A DNA stretch of 64,000 nucleotides. Origin: Lepraria neglecta (Eukaryota; Ascomycota; Lecanoromycetes; Lecanorales; Stereocaulaceae). Positions 6,145-50,434 of this stretch are shown here, piece after piece. The stretch is from the NCBI GenBank assembly GCA_033220425.1, contig CM065650.1, positions 2,232,001-2,296,000 on the forward strand. The letters are read 5' to 3'. The notes below the pieces were generated by a model. The model had not been told where the DNA came from, made no database searches, and saw only the letters and a program-made list of their open reading frames with translations. The position numbers and the translations under genes are program-made. Every line of letters starts with the position of its first letter. Within the stretch, counting starts at the first letter, position 1.

Positions 6145-9100
6145 ATGGAGAACGGGCATATACCGGAAGATGTGCGCCCTGATCCTACAGCAGACCTACA
6201 CTGGTCGTCCTTTGCTGGAGCAATTCAGGATATCTTTGCCAAAAATGCGGCGGCTCATCCAGAAAGACTCTGCGTCGTTGAGACAGCATCAAGCACACGA
6301 AATTTCACGTATAGGCATATTCAAGAGGCTTCTAATGTGCTCGCGCATAAATTGTTGAAAGATGGTGTGCAGAGGGGCGATGTTGTTATGATTTATGCGT
6401 ATAGGGGCGTTGATCTTGTGGTGGCGGTGATGGGAGTGCTTTTGGCTGGTGCCGCATTCTCTGTGGTATGTGATCTTCTGCAGATGTTATTGCTAAGGAG
6501 ATTGAAGTTTTGATATTACTTCTAGCTGGATCCCGCGTACCCTGATGACCGGCAGATTATCTATCTTGATGTACGTCGCTTACAAGAAAATACCTACTCG
6601 TTTCCTCCACAAGCACGGAAGTTAATTGGAGTAGGTAGCTCGACCGAGGGCATTAGTCGTGATCGACAAAGCATCTCGCGAAGAGGGAGGACTTTCTCCT
6701 AAAGTACGAACTTGGATCAAAGAAAATCTGGATCTCAGGACCGAAGTGCCGGGCTTAGAGCTCCTTGACGACGGTTCACTACGCGGCGGCTCCCTCGAAC
6801 ATGACGAAGTCGACGTTCTGGAGAAGCAACAGAGCTTGAAAGCTGAGCACCCGGAAGTCGTCGTAGGACCCGATTCTCAACCAACATTGAGTTTCACATC
6901 CGGAAGCGAAGGCATTCCCAAAGGTTGCAGAGGCCGCCATTTCAGCTTGACCTACTATCAATCGTGGATGGCATCCCAATTTAATCTGTCATCAGATGAC
7001 AAGTTCACAATGCTTAGCGGCATAGGTACGTATTTCCGGAGTACACACTTCCTCTTTTTGAGATGACATCTGAGCCTTGAAACATGTCTTAAGAGCTCTT
7101 AAGACATGTTTCAAGGCTCCAAAATTCTCCTCGATCAGACAATACTGACTCCAGATCTCTATCAGCCCACGATCCAATTCAGCGCGACATCTTCACGCCT
7201 TTGTTCCTCGGCGCTCAGGTACGTATTTTCGAAGCCCAAACGTCCTATTTTGAGGCGAAGTCTGAGTCTCGAAATATGTCTTAGGAGCTCTTGCCCTATA
7301 GACATGTTTCAAGGCTCCGAAATCCTTCTTGATCAGGCAACACTGACTCTGAATTCTTTATCTAGATTCTAGTTCCTGCAAAAGGAGACATACAGCACGA
7401 AAGATTAGCAGAATGTACGTCTTTTCGGAGTTGTTCTTCCCCTTTTAGTACCTTTTTGGGAGTCGTGAGACGTTCTACGAATATTTGCTCCTTAGACATG
7501 TCTCGTGACTCCTATTTCAACCCCGAAAGAATAATACTGACTCCGAAATGAGCATAGGGATGCGCGAGTACAAAGCTACGGTAACACACCTGACACCTGC
7601 AATGGGGCAAATCCTTGTTGGAGGGGCTGTTGCAGAGTTCTCCTCTCTGCATCACGCGTAAGCACCCTTTCTGAGCTATTTCCCCCCTCCATACCCCAAT
7701 CGAAGTTGTGAGACAGTTCTTAGGAGCTAGAGATGTTTTTCAGCTCCTGAGATATGTCTTTCGAGGCCCGAATCATTCTGAAAGAGAAATTCTGACTCCG
7801 AAATGGTGTAGATTCTTTGTGGGCGATATCCTGATCAAGCGGGATTGTCGTCTACTGCAAAATCTTGCGCCGAATGTCAGGGTCGTAAATATGCTGGGTA
7901 CCACCGAGACCCAGCGGGCGGTCAGCTACTATGAGATTCCCTCGAGGTCGGAAGATCCGGCGTACTTAGATCAGATGGGCGATGTAATACCTGCAGGGAG
8001 AGGTATGAAGGATGTGCAATTACTTATTGTTGATCGCGCCTCTTTGGAGGCAAAGACGCCGAGGATTTGTAATGTTGGGGAGTCGGGCGAGATTTATGTG
8101 AGGGCTGGTGGACTTGCGGAGGGCTATTTGGGCTCGGATGAGCTCAATCGCCAGAAGTTCATACCAAATTCCTTCCTTAAGAATCCGGACTTCTGGATTG
8201 AGGCTGATAAGAAACTGGCCGAAGAGGGAGGTCACAAGGAGCCCTGGCGAGAATTCTGGAAAGGCCCACGAGATCGATTGTATCGTTCTGGAGACCTTGG
8301 ACGCTATACTGAGGATGGCAACGTTGAGTGTACAGGACGCGCAGATAACCAAGTCAAAATTCGCGGCTTCCGAATCGAGCTCGGCGAAATTGATACACAT
8401 CTCTCACAGCATCCGCTCGTCCTGCAGAATGTTACGCTCATGCGGCGAGACAAGGACGAAGAGCCTACTTTGGTCTCCTATCTGGTTCCGCACATGGAGA
8501 ACTGGTCCAGCTGGTTGAAAGAAAAGGGCTTACAGGACGAATCTGAAGACGACACTATGGTTGGTATGCTTAAGCGCTTTCGAGCACTTCGAGACGATGC
8601 GCGGGCGGCGCTGAAGAAGAAGTTGCCGCATTATGCTGTGCCGAATGTTTTGATTCCTTTAAGAAAGGTAGGTGTTTGAGATATGCCCATTCTCGCAAGC
8701 TAATATATTCCAGTTCCCTCTAAATCCCAACGGCAAGATCGATAAGAAGGTCCTCCCGTACCCAGATGTAGTAGAGCTAGCAGCGGCCGCCACTGCTGGT
8801 AAGACAGCTAGATCGGCGTTCTCGCCCACGGAGAAATTCATGGGGGAGATTTGGGTGCAGCGTATCCCGGGCATTTCTGCTGATGTGATCGATTTGGACG
8901 ACAGGTTCTTCGATGTTGGGTGAATCTCCTTCCCAAGAATTCCTCCTAAAAATTTGCTAACGATCTTGTTCACAACAGTGGTCACAGCATGATAGGTAGA
9001 ACAGCACTCCCCCTCTTCCAACCGCTTGCGTTCTTTGCTAACATCACCGATAGGCCAGACAATAATCTTCGACGTCAAAAAGCAGCGCGGCATCGCCTTG

Positions 9101-10588
9101 TCAATGAACACACTCTTCCAAAACCCTACCCTCCGAGAGTTTGCATCAGTCCTGGATGCCGCTTCAAGCCTCCCCAGTGGAGACAAACCAGACAACACGC
9201 CGCCAGAAATGGATTACCACCTTGATGGTGAAGTTTTAGCCACCAAGTATCTCCGTGAGAGCATCTCCTCCGTCTCCGGAACCTATCAGCCGGAGACATT
9301 CCTCGTAACAGGCGCAAGCGGCTTCCTTGGCGCTCACATCCTAGCCGACCTCCTCAACCGCCCATACACCAAAGTCATTACTCTCGTCCGCGCCAAGAGC
9401 ACCATTGATGCTCTCCAACGTATCAGAGAAACATGTTTAGCCTACGGCATCTGGTCCAAATCATGGCTTGACTCCCGCCTCGAATGCGTGACCGGCGACC
9501 TAAGCAAACCTGGTCTTGGCGTTGAGCCAGCCGTCTGGCAACGCCTGCAAGACACAGTGGATGTAGTCATCCACAACGGAGCACGGGTGCATTGGATTCA
9601 CACGTTTTCTGAAATGAAACCAAGTAACGTCCTCGCTACTCTAGCATGCATCTCCCTCTGTTCCACAGGCCGGCCTAAACACCTAACCTTCATATCATCA
9701 ACGGCTGTGCTAGACACACCTGCTCACCTCAACAGCACTGTCCTTGAATCAGATGACCTTTCCGGCAGCCGCAAGGGCCTCTCGACTGGCTACGCGCAAA
9801 CGAAATACGTCTCTGAACACCTAATCCGCGAAGCCGGGAAGCGAGGTCTTCGCGGCAGCATTGTCCGCCCAGGCTACATTACCGGCAACCCATCCACCGG
9901 CATAGGCCCTACAGATGATTTCCTACTGCGTATGCTTAAGGGCTCAATTCAATTGCATTCGCGTCCAGATCTGAGCCCGAACACCATCAATCTCGTCCCT
10001 GTCTCGCACTGTGCTCGGATCGTCGTTGCTGCCTCCTTGCATCCACCAATTTCCGAAGGCGTAGGAGTAGTGCAAGTGACGCCGCATCCGCAGCTACCAT
10101 GGAACGATTTCCTAGGTACTCTTGAGACGTATGGCTATCAAGCACCAATCGTGCCTTACGAGCATTGGAAGGCAAAACTGGAGGAATACGTCGCCAACCC
10201 CTCCACTTCCTCTACAACCACCCAGCCAGACCCGGTCGATGGAAGTACCGCCAATGGCGTCAATGGAGCGCACAAAGTAGAGTCCGAACCACACGCCCTC
10301 CTCCCCCTCTTCGATTGGGTAACTGACGATCTCCCTTCCGAAACCGTCTCCCGCACTCTCGATGACAAAAACGCAGAAGCTGTTCTCCGCGCTGACGATC
10401 CTGCGTACCCAGTTCATGAGGCTAGTAGGGTGAGTGTGGAGACGGTGGGGGTTTATCTTGCTTTTATGGCCAAGGTGGGATTCATACCGCAGCCATCGTC
10501 AATGAGTCAAAGTAAGCAGCTGCCATCAACGGAAGTCACCAAGGAGCAGAGGGATGCTTTTGGGAAGGTCGGAAGGAGTGGCAAGTAG
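6145..10588 (+). CDS. LYS2: L-2-aminoadipate reductase (Lys2-type A-T-R enzyme), N-terminally short
   Basis: Activates alpha-aminoadipate as an adenylate, loads it on a carrier domain and reduces it to the semialdehyde (lysine synthesis). Ten exons: 6145-6465, 6526-6570, 6635-7025, 7166-7218, 7366-7414, 7558-7657, 7812-8667, 8714-8919, 8979-8995 and 9054-10588, for 1190 residues. Adenylation motifs: SFTSGSEGIPKG near residue 210, then AHDPIQRDIFTPLFLGAQ, THLTPAMGQ and NMLGTTETQRAVSY. The carrier site is DVGGHSMIG with the phosphopantetheine serine at about 677, partly on a 17-nt exon. The reductase has GASGFLGAHIL near 765 and YAQTK near 925. Conserved sequence begins where the S. cerevisiae protein is already about 230 residues long, so the N-terminal region is absent. 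Introns 3 to 6 are long and mutually similar (listed separately). It could be the housekeeping enzyme or a paralogue. Confidence 0.93.
7026..7165 (+). mobile_element. Introner-like intron A in LYS2
   Basis: A 140-bp intron, donor GTACGT and acceptor CTATCAG, placed exactly by the conserved protein frame SGI/AHDPIQRD. It contains a perfect 48-nt palindrome at 7072-7119 (arms starting GAGCCTTGAAACATG) and an ACTGACTCC branch-site block near its 3' end. Both features recur in the next three introns. The ordinary introns of this gene are 46 to 64 bp. Confidence 0.8.
7219..7365 (+). mobile_element. Introner-like intron B in LYS2
   Basis: A 147-bp intron, GTACGT..TCTAG, only 53 bp of exon downstream of intron A. 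It shares with A the start GTACGTATTT, the arms (GAGTCTCGAAATATGTCTTA and GACATGTTTCAAGGCTC) and the tail GATCAGGCAACACTGACTC. The hairpin is imperfect compared with A. Confidence 0.8.
7415..7557 (+). mobile_element. Introner-like intron C in LYS2
   Basis: A 143-bp intron, GTACGT..CATAG, 49 bp of exon after intron B. Its arms GGGAGTCGTGAGACG and TAGACATGTCTCGTGACTCC pair with interruptions. The tail AATACTGACTCCGAAAT matches introns A and D. It splits a Trp codon inside the conserved Lys2 sequence HERLAEWMREYKATVTH. Confidence 0.8.
7658..7811 (+). mobile_element. Introner-like intron D in LYS2
   Basis: A 154-bp intron, GTAAGC..TGTAG, 100 bp of exon after intron C. Same layout: a central arm with TTCTTAGGAGCT and a returning arm AGCTCCTGAGATATGTCTTTCGAGGCCC-like stretch at about 7742-7773, then CTGACTCCGAAAT before the acceptor. 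It is the most divergent of the four in its first half. Confidence 0.75.
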
Positions 10589-10826: not shown

Positions 10827-13800
10827 CTACTGTACAGCTCTTTCCCTCTCCATCTCTTCTTCAGGCACTTGAGGTTCAGACTCAGTTTCCTCTCCCATAC
10901 GAGCATCTCGTCCCTCCATCGACGCCGGATTGTTCCCCATATTCGCCTTCTCCGCCTTCTCCTTTTCCCACTTCTCCGTATTCTCCTTTTTCCTCTTGGC
11001 CGCCTTGGTCTGACCTTTCCTCGCCTTCTCCGCCCTCTCAACCAGCTCAGCGCTCTTTACTTTATCAGCTTCTGTCATCCCCTTGCCCACCTCATTCTCA
11101 CTATCCGAAAACGCCTCTTTAGCAGCTCTCTTCGCTTTCTCGTCTTCCTCAGCTTCTTTGTAGAGTTCGCGCATAGCGGGGTTGAATTTCTCCAGGTGTA
11201 TTATATCGCCGACGCGGACGCGCATGTAGTCGAATGCGACGCTGATTTTCATGTCTGTGATTTGGGGCCTTGGGGGCGGTTTCATTAGAGAGGCGGTGGA
11301 GGTGAGGGAGGAGAAAGTGGATGTGTTGGGTGGGCCGGGTTGGTTTCGCTGGTTTTGGGTGTTGTTTTCGGGCTGCTTTTGGGCTGCCTCTTCGCTTGGG
11401 CCATTTGAGAGGTTGCTGGTAGGAGCTTGAGTCTCGACAGTTGGCTCGGTGCCTTCCATGGGCTGATCAGCATCCTCCGTTGGATCCGCATCTTCCAGCT
11501 TAACGCTCATGGCGTTCATCGAGCTCATGGATGGAATCTTCTGGTATCTCTGACTGAAATGCGTCAAGATCACCCTTTTGGCACCCATTGCCGCCCCGAC
11601 TCCAATCGCTTCGCTAGTTGTACTGTGTTTCTTTGCCTCGGCATCGCCTTTAAGCTCATCATCAAATGTAGCCTCGTGTAGCAGCACTGTTGTACCTTTG
11701 CCAATAGTAGCAAAGTCTCTGGATGGACGGCAGTCACCGCTGTAAGAGAACTTGAAGCCAGTGGGGAACGTCAGGGATACAGCTTGGGCGGCAAAGCAAT
11801 GATTGACAGTCACGGCAACGAGGTTGGTGAGACCAGTAGCTTTGCGGATTGCGGATTTGCTATGGGACGTTCGTTAGTCTTGATTGATGCGTCAAGGGCA
11901 AGCACCAGGGTCTACTTACACCCAGGAGTCTTTGGACGTTTTGAAACCCACGTCCAGGCCATTCCATTCAAGAGTGCATAGATCAGGATTTTTCCAATTG
12001 GTGGGACGTGACTCCAAGGGCACGATCTGATTGTAGCCGTAATCTTCAACAGACGAGTATTCCTCCAACCAACGCATCATGTTTCGTGTGCTGACAACGA
12101 AAAGCCGCTTTCCTTCCTCTAGAAACTTACCAGGAGCCAGGAGCGCTTCTGTAAGTGACGGCCGAGGACGGTTGGCAGGATCTTTGCCATGCACCTCTTC
12201 ATACCAAGCCTTTACGACTGATGTGGTTCCCAGATGATGATCAGCGTGCAAATGGCTGATCCAGATGAGCTTGAGATCCCGCAGGACTTCCGCCAATTGT
12301 TCTTCTGTGTAGATTCGCTTCAATTGACCAAGAGTGTTTTCGCCACAATCGAGTAGGTAGGAGCCGCAGCCCGGGACCCGCAGAAGAGTAGCGGAGACAT
12401 TGCGATGCTGCGATGGTAAAGCAGACCCTGTCCCTAAGCATATTATCTCAGCATCTTGGCTGGGAAGGTCTTGACTAGCAGTCTCAGCCTGGACAGCATT
12501 AGAGCGGACTTCCTGTTGGGCGGCTTGTCCAAGCTTGAGCACCTCCGGAGGAATCTCCTGGACTACCAGCGCGGTGTTAAGATGAGGAACGACCTCTTTG
12601 TCGGTCACTTCGAACCTTGGTTCAAGATGTATCTTTAGACCTCTGCTTGCTGGTAAGCGCGATTCAGACATAGTTTCCAACCCGTAATGTGCCTCTTCGA
12701 GGAGGGATGGTAGAGCATTGTTGTGAACAGGAATGGGATACCGTGTAGGATCAATGAGGTTGTGACGGATGGCCGAGGACGCTGCTGAAGTCATCGAAAG
12801 GTAGTTAGGGCATTGATCTGGCGATGAGATGACATGCTTCAGCTTTGAGTGTTCGTTAATAAACGCTGATAGCTTCTCATTATTAACCACACCAGGACCA
12901 AGAATCCATACGATTGCCCCAATTCCAGTCATGACCTTCTCAGACGCCCATTCAGGTCTGTTGACGAGGCTTTCCACGTAGTCTTGTGACGGAAGATCCA
13001 CTACCGCAATACCACCGCCATCTTTGCCTTTTTCCAAGACCATTTCTGGTGTTATAGTTTTCCCATCACTCGACTGGACCTCCGAGCCTGCGGCAAGAGC
13101 TGCCCACTTAGGCCCTGGGGGTACTTTCAACTCTTTCGCAACAGCCGGCCTGAACTTTCCCCGTTGCCTGTGGTTTCGGATGATGTACGACATTGCGACT
13201 TTTGAGGACTTTGTAGGAGGAAGGTGGTCGATCAATGCTCCAGGCCAAGGCTGTCGAACCAGCACATTGATGTTTGGCACAGGAGTCGTACCATCAGGCA
13301 CTGAGCCTGTATATTTCTCAAGCTTTTTGGTCACCGAGTTTTGAACGAAAATGCCAGCTGGTAGCTTGACTTGGTGTAACGGCGTCTCAACTAGATTGTC
13401 ATATCGCCATGATGAGCTGAACATTTCATTCACAACAAACTCCCGAATCTGTTGATCTCGTTCTGGTTGATCTTCGGGAGCACTGGGATGAATTGACCAT
13501 TGGTCGGCGACCTCTGCTGGAGTCGGACGTTGCCCCGTCATGAACTCGCCCAAGCTTCGCTTTCGAGGTTCTGGTCGACTACTTATAGAGTCCTCATTGC
13601 CGTTCGACGGTGCAATGGGCATCGCCCAGACTTGAATCCGGTTGTCGGCCCATGTTGGCTCCCAGTCTCGTTCTGTGTCATCTAGCTGTTCTTCCATGTG
13701 ATGCTCGTTGATTTTGATTGGGGTTCCTTTCCTAAAGATGAATGATCTGGCGGTGGCAAGAGTGTGGGTAAGATTGGGACCTCCGTGTAGTGTTACCGTT

Positions 13801-14495
13801 GGATCTTCCTCCACCAGCTCTGACCCTTTTGTGGCTTTTTGCTGTAAAGACTCAGAACTAGCCTTTTTGGAAGGCTTCTTTCTCCTGCTCTCCTCCTCTT
13901 CCCGGGCTTTCCGCCGTTCGACTTTGAGTCTAAGTGTCTCAGCTCTGGCGGCAGCACTTGATATGGCCGCATCAGCGAGAGTCAAAATCATTCCCATCAA
14001 ACCTCCAGTTGTACCCCATTCAGTCCGCCCTGTAAGGAAGAAGTCCTTAGCCTTGAAGAATTTTGCTCCAACTTGCAAGCCTGCCCGCTGTAGACCTTCG
14101 TGTATGTTTCCAATCAGATAACGCTTGTCGTCGAAATGTAGTAGGAGGGCTGTACCGGGCGTATCAGCGGTGGGGGTTGTGATGAACTGGATATGGGACT
14201 TCATTTTGACGTATACGGGGACCTGTGGTCGTGTCTTGGCTCTTGATTTGGTAGCAGATCGTACTGTCTTGAGTACCTTCGAAATCTTCTCCTGTCTTTC
14301 ACGGTATTTTGATGAAGCTTTCCCTGTAGCTAGAGGAACGAACTTCTTCAAGGTTCGTTTTGTGGGCGCCGCCACCTTGTGTAGGGAGGAGTCGCTGATG
14401 AGTCTTTTGCAGTCTGCGGTGACCGTTGGCGCTTTGACGCGCTGGGTGAGGAGTTGACCACTCTGGGAAGAGCTAAATCTGGGGACATGTCGCAT
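10827..14495 (-). CDS. TRZ1: tRNase Z, long form (ELAC2/Trz1 type)
   Basis: Endonuclease that removes 3' trailers from tRNA precursors in nucleus and mitochondria. Two exons on the minus strand, 14495-11920 and 11859-10827 (intron GTAAGT..CATAG), 1202 residues. The N-terminal half has the inactive lactamase-like domain starting near residue 97 (KSHIQFITTPTADTPGTALLL). The C-terminal half opens with EIICLGTGSALPSQHRNVSA and has the zinc motif HLHADHH at about 748. After the intron come FSYSGDCRPS, LLHEATFDDE and LTHFSQRYQKIP, the other catalytic blocks. A basic, Ser-rich N-terminus (MRHVPRFSSSQSGQLLTQRV) could target mitochondria. The last 110 residues are a charged Lys/Glu-rich tail. It converges on the LYS2-like gene with about 240 bp between stops. 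Confidence 0.93.
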
Positions 14496-15260
14496 TAGGC
14501 GGAGGTATGATTGGCCTCAAGCCTTTGGAGGATGGCTGGATGACTCGAACGGCTTAATCCATTGCGCAGGGTCTTACTATTCACAGCTATCGTGAGTTAG
14601 AAGTTATCCAAGCTGCAGCAGCTGTCCCAAGCAATTGCAATTATCCTGGTCTCAACGGGTCAGTAGCTGTCAACGCACATCAATCATGAAGGAGTCATAC
14701 CTTGTACTTCTTCTCTGTTGACGCGCTTCTCCAAAACTTTTCGACAGCCGTCATAGACTTAGTCATCCCGCCGCCAACGACCCCTAACTCCTCTCCGGTT
14801 TAGGGGCTCTTCTTGGGAGCTCCTCCCTAAAACATGTCAGCGATGCTTGCAGATAGAATCAGCGTCACCGCCAATGATAACACTGCGGAAGATCTCAGGA
14901 TCTACAGTACATGGCATACTCAACGTTCCTAGAAGTGTTGATCGATATGCATTCGGGTTCTTCATTTGCGTGTCTCACTCTGAGAATGCAGGGCAAGCTG
15001 CGCAATGTCACCAGATCTCCTTGCGGGCACTGGATACGGTGAAGCTATGGCTCAGTCTCCTCTCAATCGACAATGTGGGAAGTTGCTAGCCGTTTTTTCT
15101 TCTCTACTGCTTACTTGATTTCTTGTGTTACTGGGGGGACACTCTTTCCCGGTCTGCAATTGCTTGAATAATACAACTCGCTCTCTACCTTGAATAAATT
15201 TCTTCGTACAAATCCTATTATTCCCACTGCGAACATCCTTCTCCAAGCCTGCGATTGAAA
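14496..15260. other. Divergent intergenic region between tRNase Z and the chitin-binding gene
   Basis: Promoter space for both neighbours. The only structured element seen is the inverted repeat at 14797-14838 (separate entry). Short open frames here show no protein character. Confidence 0.5.
14797..14838. repeat. Possible relic of the introner-like family outside a gene
   Basis: GGTTTAGGGGCTC is followed after a short loop by GAGCTCCTCCCTAAAACATG. The arms pair imperfectly, and the right side read on the minus strand (ACATGTTTTAGGGAGGAGCTC-like) recalls the ACATGTCTTAGGAGCTC core of the LYS2 introns. No splice sites surround it. The similarity is short and may be chance. Confidence 0.25.
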
Positions 15261-21795: not shown

Positions 21796-24294
21796 TCATC
21801 GGAATCGAAACGACTTTTGAGCCAATGGCGAGCTAGGTGGTGGAAAGGCTGCTCTAGCTGGCTCTCGGACTCGCCCGCCTCTAATGTTTGGGGTCGAACC
21901 CACGCAGATTCTGCACAGATGGACGTTGGGTAGTTTGTTCGGATCTTGAGGAAGGTTGAGGCAACCAACGTGCTGCCATTTCCTACATGACTCGCTTGAT
22001 TTGGTCAGCAGGGTCCTCCATAGTCTAATGCGTTTCAAGGCTTACCATTGAATCATGAGCCGTCCGTCATCGTGACAGCTCTCATAGACACATCGCACAC
22101 TATCGCTGCTAAGATTGCTGCGACCTGTGCTAGGTGTAGCAAGATCAGGGTCGGTGATAGTTGTTGGTGAGATGTTGCTGTACGGATCGTTGTATCGATT
22201 TCCGGGCGTCATAGATTCGCTCATGTAGTATGGTCCTCCCGAAGAGCCTTGTGAGGGGTATGGACGGCGTTGGTCAGGAATGACGTGTCTTGGACCAGGA
22301 AGTATTGATTGTCTGCTGGGTTTCTTTTGTGAGGACCGCGAGCGAATGATCTTCTTTAGCTCGGATTGGGCGTCTCCCTTGTCGTCATCAGAGTCGATGA
22401 CAGTCGAAGCCTCGCTCTCATCCTCCTCCCCAGCCACACCATTGTAAGAGGCCTGGGAGTGTTGTGAGCTGGACTGCATAAACAGATTGGACGGCCTTCG
22501 CTGATTCGTGGCTTCTGGGAGTGTACGTGCACTACTGCTCGAAGCTTTGGTGGATGCGTAAGATGATTTCTGGGAGTGTGATTTCGGATCAGTGGTGAAG
22601 CGTCCCACGGTTGGCAGTTTCTGCTTTGGACGAGGGTATGCGAAGGATTGCGGTTGGCTCATCACCATTCCAGCACTCGAGGAAGAACTGCTTTCGCTGT
22701 CATCGTCACTGTCTACCGCCATTCGCAAGGATGGTCTTGATTCGTCCATGACCCTGGTTTCTGTCTTGGCTCTTCCGCTGGCGTTGATGGTTAGAGTGAC
22801 AGAAGTCCTTTTATAAGCCTGTGACCCGTCTCCAGACATATGGAGGTTGGTCCTGCTGCGTTGCTTCTGGAGAGGGAGTTGACCAGCGCCACGACTCCCC
22901 TTTGACCTAGATGAATTCCGGCTCCTGGCACGTCTGCTGGCTAGCTCATCAATGTCTCCCTTCTTAGCACCATCAATCCCATCTTCACGCAACGTCTGGA
23001 GGGCAGCCTTCACTGCTGGAGAGTCGCCGCTTTCTGGCCCCCGTTTTCTCTTTGGCCTCCGAGCATTCTGCATTTCCATCTCTATCTGGGCATCTCGAAG
23101 CTGAAGCGCATATGGCTTTAGGATGTCGTCCTGGATTGTCTGGGAAGAGGGAGGCATGCTCGACGCCTCGGCTGCATGGCTCGGCGAGCTGAAGAGCAGG
23201 CTAGGGTTTACTGCATGCCCTCGTGAAGGTATCCGTGCCATGTTAACGGAGGTTGCGGTACGGCTTGGAGTGTCTGCATGGGTAGAAGTGGACGTAAAGG
23301 CGGCCATCCTATCGCTGCTAGTACCGAGCAGGTTGAAGCCTGGCGACGTTGGAAACTGTGTGGCATTCCCGAAGTCTTCAGCTGATGAAAATGGATCCAG
23401 ATTTTTCTGCATGCCAAAGGCCGTAAATGTATCATCCATAGAAAAGTCCATGTTCATGGTGTCGCCACCTTGTTCAGGATCCCAGAAAAGCTTGTGCTGC
23501 GGGTATACCGGTGCAGTAGCAGGACCAGACATTGGGAATCCAAACCCTTCCGGGGAAAATTGTAGTGCTTGAAATTGCTGCGGTGATTCTTCAACTCGAG
23601 ATGACGGGGCCTCAACATGGTCCGGTTGTGCAAAGCTAGGGAATGTCATCCTCTTTCCTTTATCCGCCGATTCTTTGACTAGCCTAGCTACTTGAGCTTG
23701 TTGTGCCTTTCGTCGTGACGCAGACGTGCTTGTAGGAGGTGGAGTCTGCATAGAGCCTGCTGAGTTCATGGATGCGGTAACATTCGTGTCTAGTGTGGGC
23801 TTTTGTGGTGTGGTTAACGGCTGGGTTGAATCGAAATGACTATGCTTTGACTCAGTGGTCAGGGAAGGGTTGGGAGAGGACGAGAGTTGACGTCCCGGCT
23901 CGACGGGAGATAATGGTATATTTGGGTTGGGTGACAAGTGGTGAACATGAGAGGCTATCTCAGCTTCGAGATCTTGCCCTGTAGAATGCCTCGAAGATTG
24001 TGTGGGAGTGTGTGTAGGTGTTGTGAAGCTCAGGCGGGTTGGAGTCTTGAAGTCCGGACTTGTGGCGGCCGGGAAGTTAGGAGTCCATGGCGAGAACGGA
24101 CCATGGGATCTTGAGTCTTGCTTGGGTGTTTGGAAGGAGTTCAAAAAGAAATTTGGAGATGTTGGCGTCCTGGTTGGTGTGGGAGGTTCACCGCTGGGGT
24201 AGCTGAAGCTGGGAATAATAACTACGTTAACAAGTGCATGTCGTAGAGGGTTTGCATGAGGGCTGTACCTGTAGACTAGCTGTTCAAAACTCAT
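21796..24294 (-). CDS. PHD-finger protein, largely disordered
   Basis: Probable nuclear chromatin reader. Three exons on the minus strand, 24294-24269, 24208-22046 and 21994-21796, 795 residues. I start at the ATG at 24294 (MSFEQLVY) because the longer open frame upstream has only a TTG. Intron 1 (60 bp, GTACAG..CCCAG, branch TTAAC) has no stop and reads through. The N-terminal two thirds are Ser/Pro/Thr-rich with PTPTRTPTSP and a basic RRPKRKRG stretch likely to be a nuclear signal. An acidic serine run (DSDDDSESSSSSS) follows. The C-terminal PHD finger spans the last intron: CVYESCHDDGRLMIQ joins CESCRKWQHVGC and ends HLCRICVG, giving the Cys4-His-Cys3 ligands. The acceptor at 21995 is chosen because it restores this motif. 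Confidence 0.8.
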
Positions 24295-27598: not shown

Positions 27599-28635
<1,037 letters not shown>

Positions 28636-29762
28636 ACGTTCTCCCGCCAGAAAGCCGACTGATATTTTAGCGGAACTGGCGAACGTTGGGGTTGGAGAAG
28701 CTGGATGTGGACGAGAGCATGGATACATGGCTTTGCAGCTCACTGTCATTACCATCTATAATAAAGAGCAAACAGCAACTGCGCAATGGAGTGATCCGTA
28801 ATGCCGGTAATTGCTATTCTGTCTGGTCTACCGAATGTTCTAGGCCAACGCCAAAATGCGCCCCGCAAAAGGTGCCGCTAGCTTATTCTCCTAGTCCATT
28901 TGCTGATCACGCCATTGCCCACCGTTGGTCGAGTCTTTAGAAAACGTGCCGTCATTATTGATGGTGAATAGACCAATGATGCCTTTGCAGCCTTTGTAGC
29001 TTTGGCGCAGGGTCTCCGTTGAGCCGTGGTTCATGTTGGTCATGTTGGTCATGTTGGGCATGTTGGGGGACAATTGCCACCATTACACTGGAACTCCACC
29101 AAGCTCTTAGCAACAGATTTCCGATTTCAACTGCTCGACGTAAGTCAACAGCTTTCCTTCACCGATTGAAACAGTAGTTCTATCACTACGTAAGTCTCAA
29201 GCTCCACTGCTGATTGTGTGCGCCGAAAGGCGAGTACCTATTCGTTTCTGAGTACCCCTCAACATATTCTTCGTGTTCGCTCCATGTTTCTCTTTCCGTC
29301 ATAGTTTTCTAGCCATCGAGACGGAAGATCCTCCCGTCACCAGTCATGGACCACACCCTTTCTTAGATCCAGGAATATGGCTTTGCCTTCTTAGGACCAG
29401 CCGATGAATACGATCCACGTGTCGGGCTTCATGGTTGAGGTGAACACGAAAAGCTTACCCGAGAGCTTCACTAGCAGTAGCTTAGCAGGTAATAGCTCCG
29501 GAAGCCTTACTGACGATTGGCCTATCAGTGTTTAGTCTTTCGTCATCATCAACATTTTTCTTTTCCATTGCGCGCGGGGTCATCGAAATGGCGCAACCCC
29601 ACAGAGGAATAAATACTGGGGCTCGGCCTCTGCTGCTGGGTGCAAATCACTGCGTCTCTCGTTTACGCATACTATCGTTGACTGTCGCTATTCATTCGCA
29701 CACACATAATAATAATAATACAGACACAAAATAACAACAAAATAACATCGTCTATACTCAAC
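28636..29762. other. Intergenic region with a 9-bp microrepeat
   Basis: No firm gene. At about 29032-29064 the unit CATGTTGGT recurs four times with small changes. Read on the minus strand it makes the Asn-Met-Thr-rich start of a 60-codon open frame (29073-28891) without other support. The last 150 bp form the PIR gene promoter, with AATAAATA at about 29609 and an AATAATAATAATA leader run. Confidence 0.45.
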
Positions 29763-30782
29763 ATGGCGAGACTCATATACACCTCGATTCTCCTCTTCGC
29801 ATCTCTCTGTATAGCTCTTCCTCAGGTTTCCCAAGCAGGCGATGGCCAGCCCCAAGGTGCAACCGGCGTCTCTCAGATCTCCGACGGTCAAGTGCAAGCA
29901 CCTACCACTGCCCCAGTGAAGCAAATCAGTGATGGACAAGTCCAAGCACCCACAACAGCTCCAGTCAAGCAGATCTCTGACGGCCAGATTCAAGCACCCA
30001 CCACCGCCCCTGTCAAACAAATCTCAGATGGCCAAATCCAAGCGCCCACTACAGCCCCCGTCAAGCAAATCAGCGACGGCCAAATCCAAGCACCTACCAC
30101 CGCCCCCGTCAAGCAGATCAGCGATGGCCAAATCCAGGCTCCCACTACAGCCCCTGTCAAGCAAATCAGTGATGGACAAGTCCAAACACCCACCACCGCC
30201 CCCGTCAAGCAGATCAGCGACGGCCAGATCCAAGCTCCCACTACAGCCCCTGTCAAGCAAATCAGCGACGGCCAAATCCAAGCACCTACCACCGCCCCCG
30301 TCAAGCAAATCAGCGACGGCCAGATCCAAGCTCCCACTACCGCCCCTGTCAAGCAAATCAGCGACGGCCAGATCCAAGCACCTACCACCGCCCCCGTCAA
30401 GCAAATCAGCGACGGCCAGATCCAAGCTCCCACTACCGCCCCTGTCAAGCAAATCAGCGACGGCCAGATCCAAGCTCCCACTACAGCCCCTGTCAAGCAA
30501 ATCAGCGACGGCCAGATCCAAGCACCTACCACCGCCCCCGTCAAGCAAATCAGCGACGGCCAGATCCAAGCTCCCACTACAGCCCCAGTCAAGCAAATCA
30601 GCGATGGCCAAGTGCAAGCACCCACAACAGCACCCGTCTCCCAGATCACAGATGGCCAAGTGCAAGCACAGACTTCAGCACCAGCACCTGCAACCTTTAC
30701 TGGTGCCGCCGCTCCCGTTGCCTGGAACCAAGAAGTTCTTGTTGCGGCTGTTGGTGCTGCTGCTGGGTTCGCTTTGTTGTGA
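29763..30782 (+). CDS. PIR-repeat cell-wall protein with GPI-like C-terminus
   Basis: Structural wall protein. A single exon of 339 residues. The signal peptide is [20 protein letters not shown]. From residue 37 there are 17 head-to-tail copies of a 16-residue unit, [16 protein letters not shown], containing the PIR core Q-[IV]-x-D-G-Q-[IV]-Q whose Gln is ester-linked to beta-1,3-glucan in yeast. A degenerate copy ([10 protein letters not shown]) precedes them. The protein then ends [29 protein letters not shown], a small-residue stretch plus hydrophobic tail like a GPI signal. The four-cysteine C-terminal domain of classical Pir proteins is absent, and the only Cys is in the signal peptide. 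Repeats 3-6 and 8-15 are identical in protein sequence and nearly so in DNA. Confidence 0.9.
29871..30686 (+). repeat. 17 tandem 48-bp repeats coding the PIR units
   Basis: Seventeen 48-bp units in one frame. Neighbouring units often differ only at third positions (CCC/CCT, AAG/AAA), and two unit variants alternate in part of the array. This suggests expansion by unequal crossing-over of multi-unit blocks. Confidence 0.95.
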
Positions 30783-35074: not shown

Positions 35075-36672
35075 TCACCCAGACCACATCTTGGTCACCA
35101 ATTGATCGGTATAGTTCCAGATCGCGGTAGAGCTCTGCGTCACGAACGCAGCGCCCGTCCAATACGTGTTTCTCTGGCCCTGCAGGGCAAAGAGCTTGTT
35201 GTAGAACCCCTTGGCGATCTGGTCCGAGGGCACGTACAGCTCGTACGGCGAGTGGCTCGTGAAATCGATGATGCTGAGGTCCTTTACGGGGCCTGATGAG
35301 TTGGGTATGACACCCGTGGCTCGCAAGCGGGTGAGGGTGTCTTGAAGGGCGGTCTCGACTTGGGACTCGGTGAAGGTTGGTTGAGAATCGTTGCCGGCGA
35401 AGAGAAAATAGTGGATGCCGGGCACTGCTGTTGCGTAGATGTTGTAGACGCCTGGTACGACCGGAATGTTGAAATTGTTGGTGTTCGTTGTTCCGTAGTT
35501 GACCAATGTTACGTTGTCGGGAACGCCAGAGTTGTTGACAAGGCCAACGTACCAGGAGTGGCCCCGGAACTTGTTGAAGATAGGGACCTCGGTCTTGTTG
35601 TTCAGATCGAAGCCGTTCAGATTGTCGATCACTGAGTAAATGGCAGAGTCAGCATGACTTCTGATGATCAAGGAAACGAGGCGTGAGGCACGGAAACGAG
35701 CCACGAGACAAGTCTTTAGAGCTGATGCTCCTAAGTCGTGTTTCCAAGAGCTCGCGATCATCTCGGATTCCAAGGGTGATTGGATAACTCAGAAATTCAC
35801 TTACGCGGTGGAATTGCAGAGATGAGCTTCTTGGCACGGATGAGCTTCTTCCCAGAGGGCGTCTGGACCGTGATTGTGACCCCATCCGCCGCACTCCGAT
35901 CCATGGAGATGACAGTACTGCTCAACAGCGCATAGGATCCCAGCTCTTGCGTGGCATTCCCGTAGATGAGGCTGTTGTCTTTGGCGGCCAAGGCTCCTGG
36001 TCCATCACCAGAGAGAGAAGCCGGGCTGAAGAAGTCCGGAGAAAAGTATTTGATGGCGAGAAGAGTCGGTAGAGTCACAAAGTTACCCCAACCTTCACCA
36101 TAGAGACTCAAGTAGGGCACTGCATCCTGCAATTCGTACTTCGTGATGAACTGCCCGAAGGGCAACAGCAGATCAGCAGGCACCGGGAACGGGACGTCGT
36201 CGAGACTGTAGAACAAGGACGGATATTTGGCGACCTGCACCTGGAACGCGTTCCAGGCACCCAAGAGATCGCCTTGCTTCGGGGTCGCAGGTAGGCCGGT
36301 TGAAAAGTCCGCATATTCTGAGGTGACGCCCGGTGTGGTGTAGTTGTATTGGTACAATGGCACCTGGAGACGGGCAAAAAACGCTCTCACGATAGGTGTG
36401 TCCTGGTACTCGGCCACGCCAAGCTCGATCACCTTCTTCGAAGCTGGGTCAACGTAGGTCTTGGTATGCCCACCAAGCCTATCTTGTTGTTCCACAACCG
36501 CTACCGATTTGCCCAGCTCCTTTGACTTGATCGCGGCGTATGTTCCGGCGGCACCTCCGCCAATCACGCAGACATCGACGTCGAGTGTGTTTTGTTGCGA
36601 GATATTGGCATCTCTCTGCGTAAGCGCTGCAGCTGCCCAGCCGATGAGAGCAAAGGAGGCGATGCTAAGCAT
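35075..36672 (-). CDS. Secreted or vesicular FAD-dependent oxidoreductase (amine-oxidase fold)
   Basis: Flavoenzyme of the fungal NAD(P)-binding/amine-oxidase-like group that includes beta-cyclopiazonate dehydrogenase. Two exons on the minus strand, 36672-35805 and 35631-35075, 474 residues. The ATG at 36672 is chosen because it begins a signal peptide (MLSIASFALIGWAAAAL); the upstream extension has only a TTG. The FAD-binding motif is VDVCVIGGGAAGTYAAIK near residue 34, followed by VAVVEQQDRLGGHTKTY, as in the family. Exon 1 ends SAIPP and exon 2 starts with LIDNLNGF. The C-terminus has SIIDFTSHSPYELYVP and NTYWTGAAFVTQSS, the conserved end of the fold. The substrate is unknown. The 173-bp intron is of the introner-like type. 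Confidence 0.85.
35632..35804 (-). mobile_element. Introner-like intron E in the FAD oxidoreductase gene
   Basis: A 173-bp intron on the minus strand, GTAAGT..TACTCAG. It shares with the LYS2 introns the core GACTTAGGAGC, a returning arm AAAGACTTGTCTCGTGGCTC and the block TGCTGACTC before the acceptor. It is the only intron of this gene and three times longer than the ordinary introns in the window. Confidence 0.65.
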
Positions 36673-49100: not shown

Positions 49101-50112
49101 TATAATATTATCCTACTTCCTTTTAGTCGATCTTCTAGACTTCGAAATATTTAGAGTCTCTATAAAATCTAACTCCCTTAATAAATATAGCGGAGGCCTC
49201 CGCGAGAGAAGAGGGATACTTCTAAGTAAGTAGAAATATAAAGGGATCTTCTTTCGCGTTAATTTCTAATAGATCGACTAAGAGAGCTCTACTATTTAAA
49301 CGACCACGTCTTATATAAGGTTCACTACCCCTAAGGATATCTACTGGCGGATTATATATATTAACGATTAAAAGAATAACTTGATAGTATAATATATTAA
49401 TGTTCTTTTCGTATACATCGACGTTATTCGCTAAGAAGGCGTTTAACTAGAAAGCAAGGTAAATAGTAAGGTCTAATAGCTTTGGCTTCTCCGCTTCTAG
49501 AGTAACTCCCGCTCGGCTTATAAGGAGCTCGTTATTAATAATTAACTAAAGAAGATATTTTCGTATTAAAGGAAAAGCTTTATTTAACGCAAGGTATAGA
49601 GGCGGTAACGTAATCTAGTAACTTAATTCTAGAAGAAATTCGTACCGCGCTAAGCGTTAGGGGCGAAATCCGGAAATGGAATAGCGCCCTAATAGAATTT
49701 GCTGGTATAGAACTATACGCAAAGTATACTAACGCAGAAGGTCGCTGGTATAGCTTCGTAGATATTATAGTTCTTGTAGCCTTATAGTATAGTTCAGACG
49801 GAAATAGATAAGGCGTCCTCGGCTCGGTCCGTTTGAAGTAGTAAGTGGTGGTAATAGTGCGATGATACACTAGTAATTTATAGCTACACTAAGCGAGTGC
49901 CTTTTAATAGCGTGGAATTGTAGGGATAGTTATAGATAAAGGCGAACTTAGTAGCGTAGGCCGTCTCGATCTACAGGAAGTGATTGGTACAGAAAATAGT
50001 ACTATCTTAGCGAATCAATAATGCTTAATAATTAATAATTCGTGATAGCGAAGGACTGGTGCCCTAAGGGCTGGTATACGGCGGGAATGAACATACTGCC
50101 GTTACTACCAAT

Positions 50113-50265
50113 TAGTAGGGTCTTAGTATAGATGAAATATACAACGCGCAAAGATCATAATAAACGAGTTATTAGGGTTGAATGAGTTGTTGATTCTTTC
50201 TAGCTACTAAGCGGAAGAAATACATAAGGCAAGCGCAAGCGCTTACTAATCTAGTAACCATAATA
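50113..50265 (-). repeat. Gypsy LTR, inner right copy
   Basis: 153 bp. On the minus strand its end is followed by TTGGTAGTAACGG (50112-50100), a TGG-starting primer-binding-site candidate. Confidence 0.85.
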
Positions 50266-50281
50266 GTTCGTTGCTACCAAT

Positions 50282-50434
50282 TGGCAGGGTCTTAGTATAG
50301 ATGAAATATACAACGCGCAAAGATCACAATGAACGAGTTATTGGGGTTGAATGAGTTATTAATTCTTTCTAGCTACTAAGCGGAAGAAATACATAAGGCA
50401 AGCGCAAGCGCTTACTAATCCAGTAACTATAACA
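50282..50434 (-). repeat. Gypsy LTR, outer right copy
   Basis: 153 bp with TG..CA ends, followed by the CTTTA duplication. A 16-bp spacer (50266-50281), which on the minus strand reads ATTGGTAGCAACG, separates it from the inner copy. Confidence 0.85.

Follow-up and report, generated by a model that had tools for sequence, protein, structure and literature searches.

Five introns in two unrelated genes are very probably copies of a single family of introner-like elements. Four of them (I1 to I4) stand side by side in a LYS2-like gene and the fifth (I5) interrupts a flavin amine-oxidase-like gene elsewhere in the window, by which we mean the whole 64-kb stretch of DNA that was analysed (Table 1). 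The five share common descent, lie in the sense orientation of their host genes, have consistent intron limits, carry inverted symmetry and a common branch site, and are flanked by no target-site duplication beyond chance. We infer that all five were newly gained at their present positions, and in the cell they are presumably spliced out. This evidence covers five copies in two genes of one window, and it does not show ongoing activity.

Table 1. Genes, introner-like introns and control introns in the window; fold z compares the predicted RNA fold with shuffles.
Feature	Position	Strand	Length	Phase	Ends	Remarks
LYS2-like gene (L-aminoadipate-semialdehyde dehydrogenase family)	6145..10588	+	1190 aa			ten exons
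Introner-like intron I1	7026..7165	+	140 bp	1	GTACGT...CAG	perfect 48-bp palindrome 7072-7119; fold z -6.96
Introner-like intron I2	7219..7365	+	147 bp	0	GTACGT...TAG	in-frame stop if retained; fold z -4.23
Introner-like intron I3	7415..7557	+	143 bp	1	GTACGT...TAG	near-terminal stem 13/14 pairs; fold z -5.17
Introner-like intron I4	7658..7811	+	154 bp	2	GTAAGC...TAG	near-terminal stem 12/14 pairs; fold z -4.93
Regular short intron (control)	6466..6525	+	60 bp			fold z -1.75
Regular short intron (control)	6571..6634	+	64 bp			fold z 0.18
Regular short intron (control)	8668..8713	+	46 bp			fold z -0.03
Regular short intron (control)	8920..8978	+	59 bp			fold z -0.71
Regular short intron (control)	8996..9053	+	58 bp			fold z -0.22
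Flavin amine-oxidase-like gene	35075..36672	-	474 aa without I5			nearest solved relative beta-cyclopiazonate dehydrogenase
Introner-like intron I5	35632..35804	-	173 bp	1	GTAAGT...CAG	near-terminal stem 14/17 pairs; fold z -1.15

The initial annotation had read four consecutive introns of 140, 147, 143 and 154 bp, separated by exons of 53, 49 and 100 bp, and these coordinates and lengths proved exact; the coding sequence spanned comes to only 202 bp in total. Once nine introns are removed, the frame of the LYS2-like gene is open over 1190 residues, and its product matches the L-aminoadipate-semialdehyde dehydrogenase model TIGR03443 in a single stretch, from position 220 to 1386 of 1390, at 1597 bits against a cut-off of 1030.1 bits. 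The joints of I1 to I4 were placed at first by Lys2 motifs, and they are backed by the full-length TIGR03443 match and by an alignment to a bacterial adenylation domain that is only distantly related. In that one alignment the joints of I1, I3 and I4 are ungapped, and the joint of I2 has a one-residue gap one residue away. Counting along the exons puts the joints at residues 253, 270/271, 287 and 320; the adenylation domain covers residues 55-527, and their placement within it is thereby borne out. The protein is not a complete Lys2: the first 219 positions of the model are missing. If retained, each intron would bring an in-frame stop, after 13 (I1), 21 (I2), 45 (I3) or 1 (I4) codons, so that their removal is needed for the protein.

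Is the host LYS2 itself? Because the model match begins at position 220 and the start codon lies only ~350 bp from the stop of an upstream sugar transporter, the N-terminal part of the gene is missing here, and we may be looking at an additional copy of LYS2, short at its N-terminus, rather than at LYS2 itself. Extra lys2 copies are described in Fusarium oxysporum and N. haematococca in the available portion of PMC3270093. The introns are not affected by the short N-terminus. Relatives in which intron positions could be compared were sought with six peptide patterns taken from one 208-residue stretch, in collections where fungi are hardly to be expected: a bacterial and archaeal collection gave no fungal relative and one Lachnospiraceae match of 37 residues, of no use for the comparison, and viral contigs gave no match. 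At 10830-14516 on the minus strand is a probable tRNase Z gene of two large open frames, the short gap between them being probably a regular intron; its second part resembles a metallo-beta-lactamase model, at a score under the cut-off.

That the four introns are related, as the initial annotation had it, is confirmed with I5 included: all ten pairwise alignments score above the best of 200 shuffles, at identities of 58.7-81.3%, and when each copy is searched for in the window with a profile made from the other four, I1 is recovered at 65.2 bits, I2 at 67.8, I3 at 48.7, I4 at 34.1 and I5 at 29.2. The likeness spans the whole intron, parts beyond the hairpin included. The copies are also set apart by length, at 140-173 bp versus 46-64 bp for the five regular introns of the LYS2-like gene, none of which matches the family profile at E up to 10. 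The description of the other introns as 46-64 bp long and unrelated thus holds for the remaining five of this gene and fails for the window, which contains I5. A tree of the five copies joins I1 with I2 in 87% and I3 with I4 in 97% of 500 bootstraps. Its terminal branches measure 0.06 (I1), 0.16 (I3), 0.25 (I2), 0.38 (I4) and 0.53 (I5), and a longer branch tends to accompany a poorer fold, the pattern that decay of the fold over time would produce, in a series of five points with I2 and I4 out of order.

The moderate identity might also be read as that of old introns at ancestral positions, made alike by gene conversion or by convergence on a hairpin fold. However, the likeness takes in sequence outside the hairpin, it recurs in a gene at a distance of 28 kb on the opposite strand, and the regular introns of the LYS2-like gene have neither such sequence nor such a fold; we regard this origin as very improbable. 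Judged by identity, the family of introner-like elements is old or diverging, since 58.7-81.3% is far under the 98-99% given for introner-like families thought to be active (PMC4457414, in its available sections).

The copy outside the LYS2-like gene was found with a profile made from I1 to I4 only, which scored I5 at 29.2 bits (E 2.3e-8 in the 64-kb window), compared with a best score of 9.9 bits in 100 dinucleotide-shuffled windows from which the known copies had been cut out; the next non-family match of this profile in the real window reached 3.1 bits. The limits of I5 agree between profile and protein homology, since exact excision of the envelope leaves a 474-residue product that is ungapped at the joint in the alignment to a fungal flavoenzyme, beta-cyclopiazonate dehydrogenase (PDB 9kp8). 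The protein matches PDB 9kp8 and 9vex at E 1.5e-70 and 2.9e-70, and this nearest relative is a secondary-metabolite enzyme. The host of I5 is unrelated to the LYS2-like gene and lies 28 kb from it on the opposite strand, which means that the family is dispersed and did not arise by tandem duplication inside LYS2, as expected of fungal introner-like elements. The initial annotation had proposed an introner-like family and had named the absence of further members in the genome as what would speak against it; I5, which the window itself contains and whose host gene is unrelated and oppositely oriented, answers that point in favour of the proposal.

Repeated copying of one intron together with flanking exon would account for four introns in a row whose neighbours are their closest relatives. 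The intervening exons, however, encode a continuous conserved domain, the direct repeats listed in 6900-7900 stay within the introns or exceed them by at most 2 bases, and the intron phases differ (1, 0, 1, 2). With the exons unrepeated and I5 elsewhere, we reject tandem duplication within LYS2 as extremely improbable.

Searches for further copies covered the window. We discarded the weak profile matches at 27732-27832, 23942-23998, 6637-6711 and 304-360, because they score at most 5.4 bits and the shuffled best, from a control that used only the four-intron profile, is 9.9 bits. When a covariance model of all five introns was run over the 64-kb window with E up to 10, it returned ten rows, namely the five introns (by construction) and their opposite strands, and no further locus. 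In the window, short-word blastn turned up nothing but weak, scattered matches beyond the loci of I1 to I5, Rfam gave no match at gathering scores, and a tRNA search with the bacterial code gave none.

The window has several other features. I5 stands a few kb ahead of an AT-rich tract (40001-64000, GC 33-46%) in which TpA/ApT is 1.34-1.58, versus 0.65-0.68 in the first 32 kb, and (CpA+TpG)/(ApC+GpT) is 0.26-0.68 versus 1.30-1.36; by its composition the tract looks like the product of repeat-induced point mutation. Taken with the gene content, it points tentatively to a filamentous ascomycete. A 169-bp direct tandem duplication with 93% matches lies within it, at 50100-50432. At 29682-30779 on the plus strand, an open frame contains a 48-bp unit (16 protein letters) repeated 15.8 times, with DGQ occurring 18 times; its repeats recall those of PIR cell-wall proteins.

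All five copies of the family begin with GT, end with AG and share a CTGAC branch site, its A being 16-19 nt away from the last G; the ACTGACTCC block contains this branch site. A block before the acceptor had been described in the initial annotation, and it does hold the branch site, with CTGACTC common to I1 to I5, but in the form ACTGACTCCGAAAT it is exact only in I3. Likewise, of the GTACGT/GTAAGC start given for the four LYS2 introns, GTACGT is found in three and GTAAGC in one. The donor region is part of the family in at least I1 to I3. The nucleotides just before the acceptor differ among copies.

The copies are strongly symmetrical. Each of the five aligns to its own reverse complement better than any of 200 shuffles does; the string quoted in the initial annotation for a long inverted repeat, ACATGTCTTAGGAGCTC, occurs exactly in none of them. 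The predicted RNA folds of I1 to I4 are far stabler than those of shuffled sequences, the fold of I5 barely beats chance (26/200 shuffles fold equally well), and the five regular introns range from the -1.75 to the 0.18 of Table 1. A second element is a near-terminal stem, in which the sequence following the donor pairs with the stretch that runs from the branch site towards the acceptor. In I3, I4 and I5 a pairing as good turns up in 4, 1 and 10 of 1000 shuffles, respectively, and in these three copies the stem starts at nucleotide 4-6 of the intron, with the other arm at or beside the branch adenosine. The stem is not significant in I1 (7/8 pairs; 126/1000 shuffles) or I2 (875/1000), nor in the five regular introns (301-801 of 1000 shuffles).

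Covariation offers mixed support for a common hairpin, the candidate structure having been predicted from the same five sequences. In this structure 79.2% of cells pair, versus at most 48.7% in slid versions and 75.4% in shuffles (1/500), the covariation score is 0.251 versus 0.201 in shuffles (8/500), and 11 cells are changed on both sides versus 6.8 (14/500). Counted by pair, the signal falls within what shuffling gives: 7 pairs are changed on both sides against a shuffled mean of 5.9 (167/500 shuffles reach 7), and there are 25 further pair types against 23.3 (130/500 reach 25).

The edges of the introns bear on how they entered. Within 12 nt of both edges, a direct repeat beyond chance was found in none of the five copies; exactly at the edges, AG (2 nt) is repeated in I1 and I2, one nucleotide in I3, and nothing in I4 or I5. 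The absence of a target-site duplication speaks against a target-duplicating transposon, and it agrees with excerpts of PMC8469720 and PMC12403724, in which fungal introner-like elements and stwintrons are reported to insert seamlessly. The copies might nevertheless be short non-autonomous DNA transposons, bearing inverted repeats and spliced by chance, their symmetry being what remains of transposon ends. DNA transposition is the origin proposed for many algal introners, terminal inverted repeats are counted in 72 of 177 introner families in the part of PMC9860276 available, inverted symmetry is present in every copy here and is perfect over 48 bp in I1, and the variable stretch before the acceptor leaves room for one derived from the target. 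Against this stand the lack of edge repeats, a donor region that is the family's own in at least three copies, and joints that are ungapped in four of the five; moreover, the same portion of PMC9860276 treats the ascomycete families as an outlier with neither target duplications nor inverted repeats. On balance a transposon origin strikes us as decidedly unlikely.

A further point is the crowding of the copies. Four introner-like introns within 202 bp of coding sequence form an unusually tight cluster: when five copies are placed at random, clustering of this degree arises in 0.028% of placements for 8 kb of coding sequence, 0.003% for 15 kb and 0.0015% for 25 kb, in a simulation of 200,000 placements per coding length that was run after the cluster had been seen. 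One refinement of the introner-like reading is local spread, in which a single founder entered the LYS2-like gene and gave rise to the others there, its RNA being reverse spliced into the transcript it came from, or in which conversion between neighbours made the copies more alike. The tightness of the cluster favours it, as does a tree that pairs neighbour with neighbour. However, this tree shape is one of the 15 possible for five copies, so that neighbours would pair by chance about 7% of the time; the region was picked for being clustered, further copies in the genome could split the I1/I2 and I3/I4 pairs, and an insertion hotspot predicts an identical cluster. We consider local spread rather unlikely.

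How might such introns multiply? As introner-like elements, they would each be an intron that brings its own donor and branch site, and since the element is symmetrical across nearly its whole length, it could form a long hairpin. New copies would enter the exons of transcribed genes seamlessly, the excised intron RNA being either reverse spliced or ligated into breaks and then converted to DNA. The hairpin and the near-terminal stem may shield the excised RNA and hold its two ends together. For the spread through excised RNA, taken by itself, we have a slight preference. That the RNA re-enters its own transcript in cis, a single founder thereby seeding its neighbours in the same exon, seems to us decidedly unlikely. 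If it did, I1-I2 and I3-I4 in the LYS2-like gene would be the trace of a local series, driven by an RNA in which fold and near-terminal stem hold the branch-site region against the donor, a device shared with the stwintrons of another fungal order.

Among Dothideomycetes, introner-like elements are known from Fulvia fulva, Dothistroma and Zymoseptoria, the original study reportedly being that of van der Burgt in 2012. I1 to I5 match what has been published on such fungal elements, as given in the available parts of PMC4457414, PMC3443670 and PMC8469720. Like the elements of Dothideomycetes (Collemare 2015, PMC4457414), they have the form of canonical spliceosomal introns longer than the regular ones, occur as sense-oriented repeats inserted seamlessly in unrelated genes, have stable predicted folds, and tend to degenerate with age. 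The same source, as far as its accessible text goes, lists four genes with two introner-like elements each, near one another, and mentions no gene with four; the LYS2-like gene differs in carrying four in so short a coding stretch, without our claiming that such a case is absent from print.

The sister stwintrons and type-2 cropped sister introns of Hypoxylaceae and Xylariaceae, as described in the portions of PMC8469720 and PMC12403724 at hand, offer a second likeness, being near-palindromic and having spread without target duplication. In 2025, near-terminal elements whose 3' half lies between branch site and acceptor were reported in stwintrons of Xylariales (PMC12403724, in part), and a near-terminal inverted repeat so placed is significant in three of our five copies, where the stem has 12/14 to 14/17 pairs and starts at or beside the branch adenosine. 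Unlike sister stwintrons, I1 to I5 are single canonical introns and are not nested and donor-disrupted, although the type-2 cropped introns are canonical too; no internal intron splitting a donor was encountered, and one excision explains each joint. The 10-nt stwintron palindrome TTTCTAGAAA occurs in none of the five copies. The presence of a near-terminal stem beside the branch site in three plain introns, matching a stwintron feature, hints at a common requirement for copying.

With the algal DNA-transposon introners of PMC9860276, again in its available part, the family shares multiplication of introns in copies and inverted symmetry, but the target-site duplications of 3-9 bp found there have no counterpart beyond chance in I1 to I5. 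The symmetry of our copies also bears on the claim in that survey that ascomycete introner families lack terminal inverted repeats: all five copies are symmetrical, and end-to-end pairing, starting at nucleotide 4-6, is significant in three. Inverted repeats or stable folds were likewise seen in fungal elements by earlier authors (PMC8469720, in excerpt). Being free of duplications yet strongly symmetrical, I1 to I5 qualify the survey, which five copies do not contradict.

In conclusion, the origin of introns is a long-standing question, and four sister introns in one gene, together with a fifth in another, allow it to be asked whether such elements spread locally or at random. In their seamless, sense-oriented insertion they resemble the introner-like elements of Dothideomycetes, and three of the five, in the near-terminal stem beside the branch site, recall the stwintrons.
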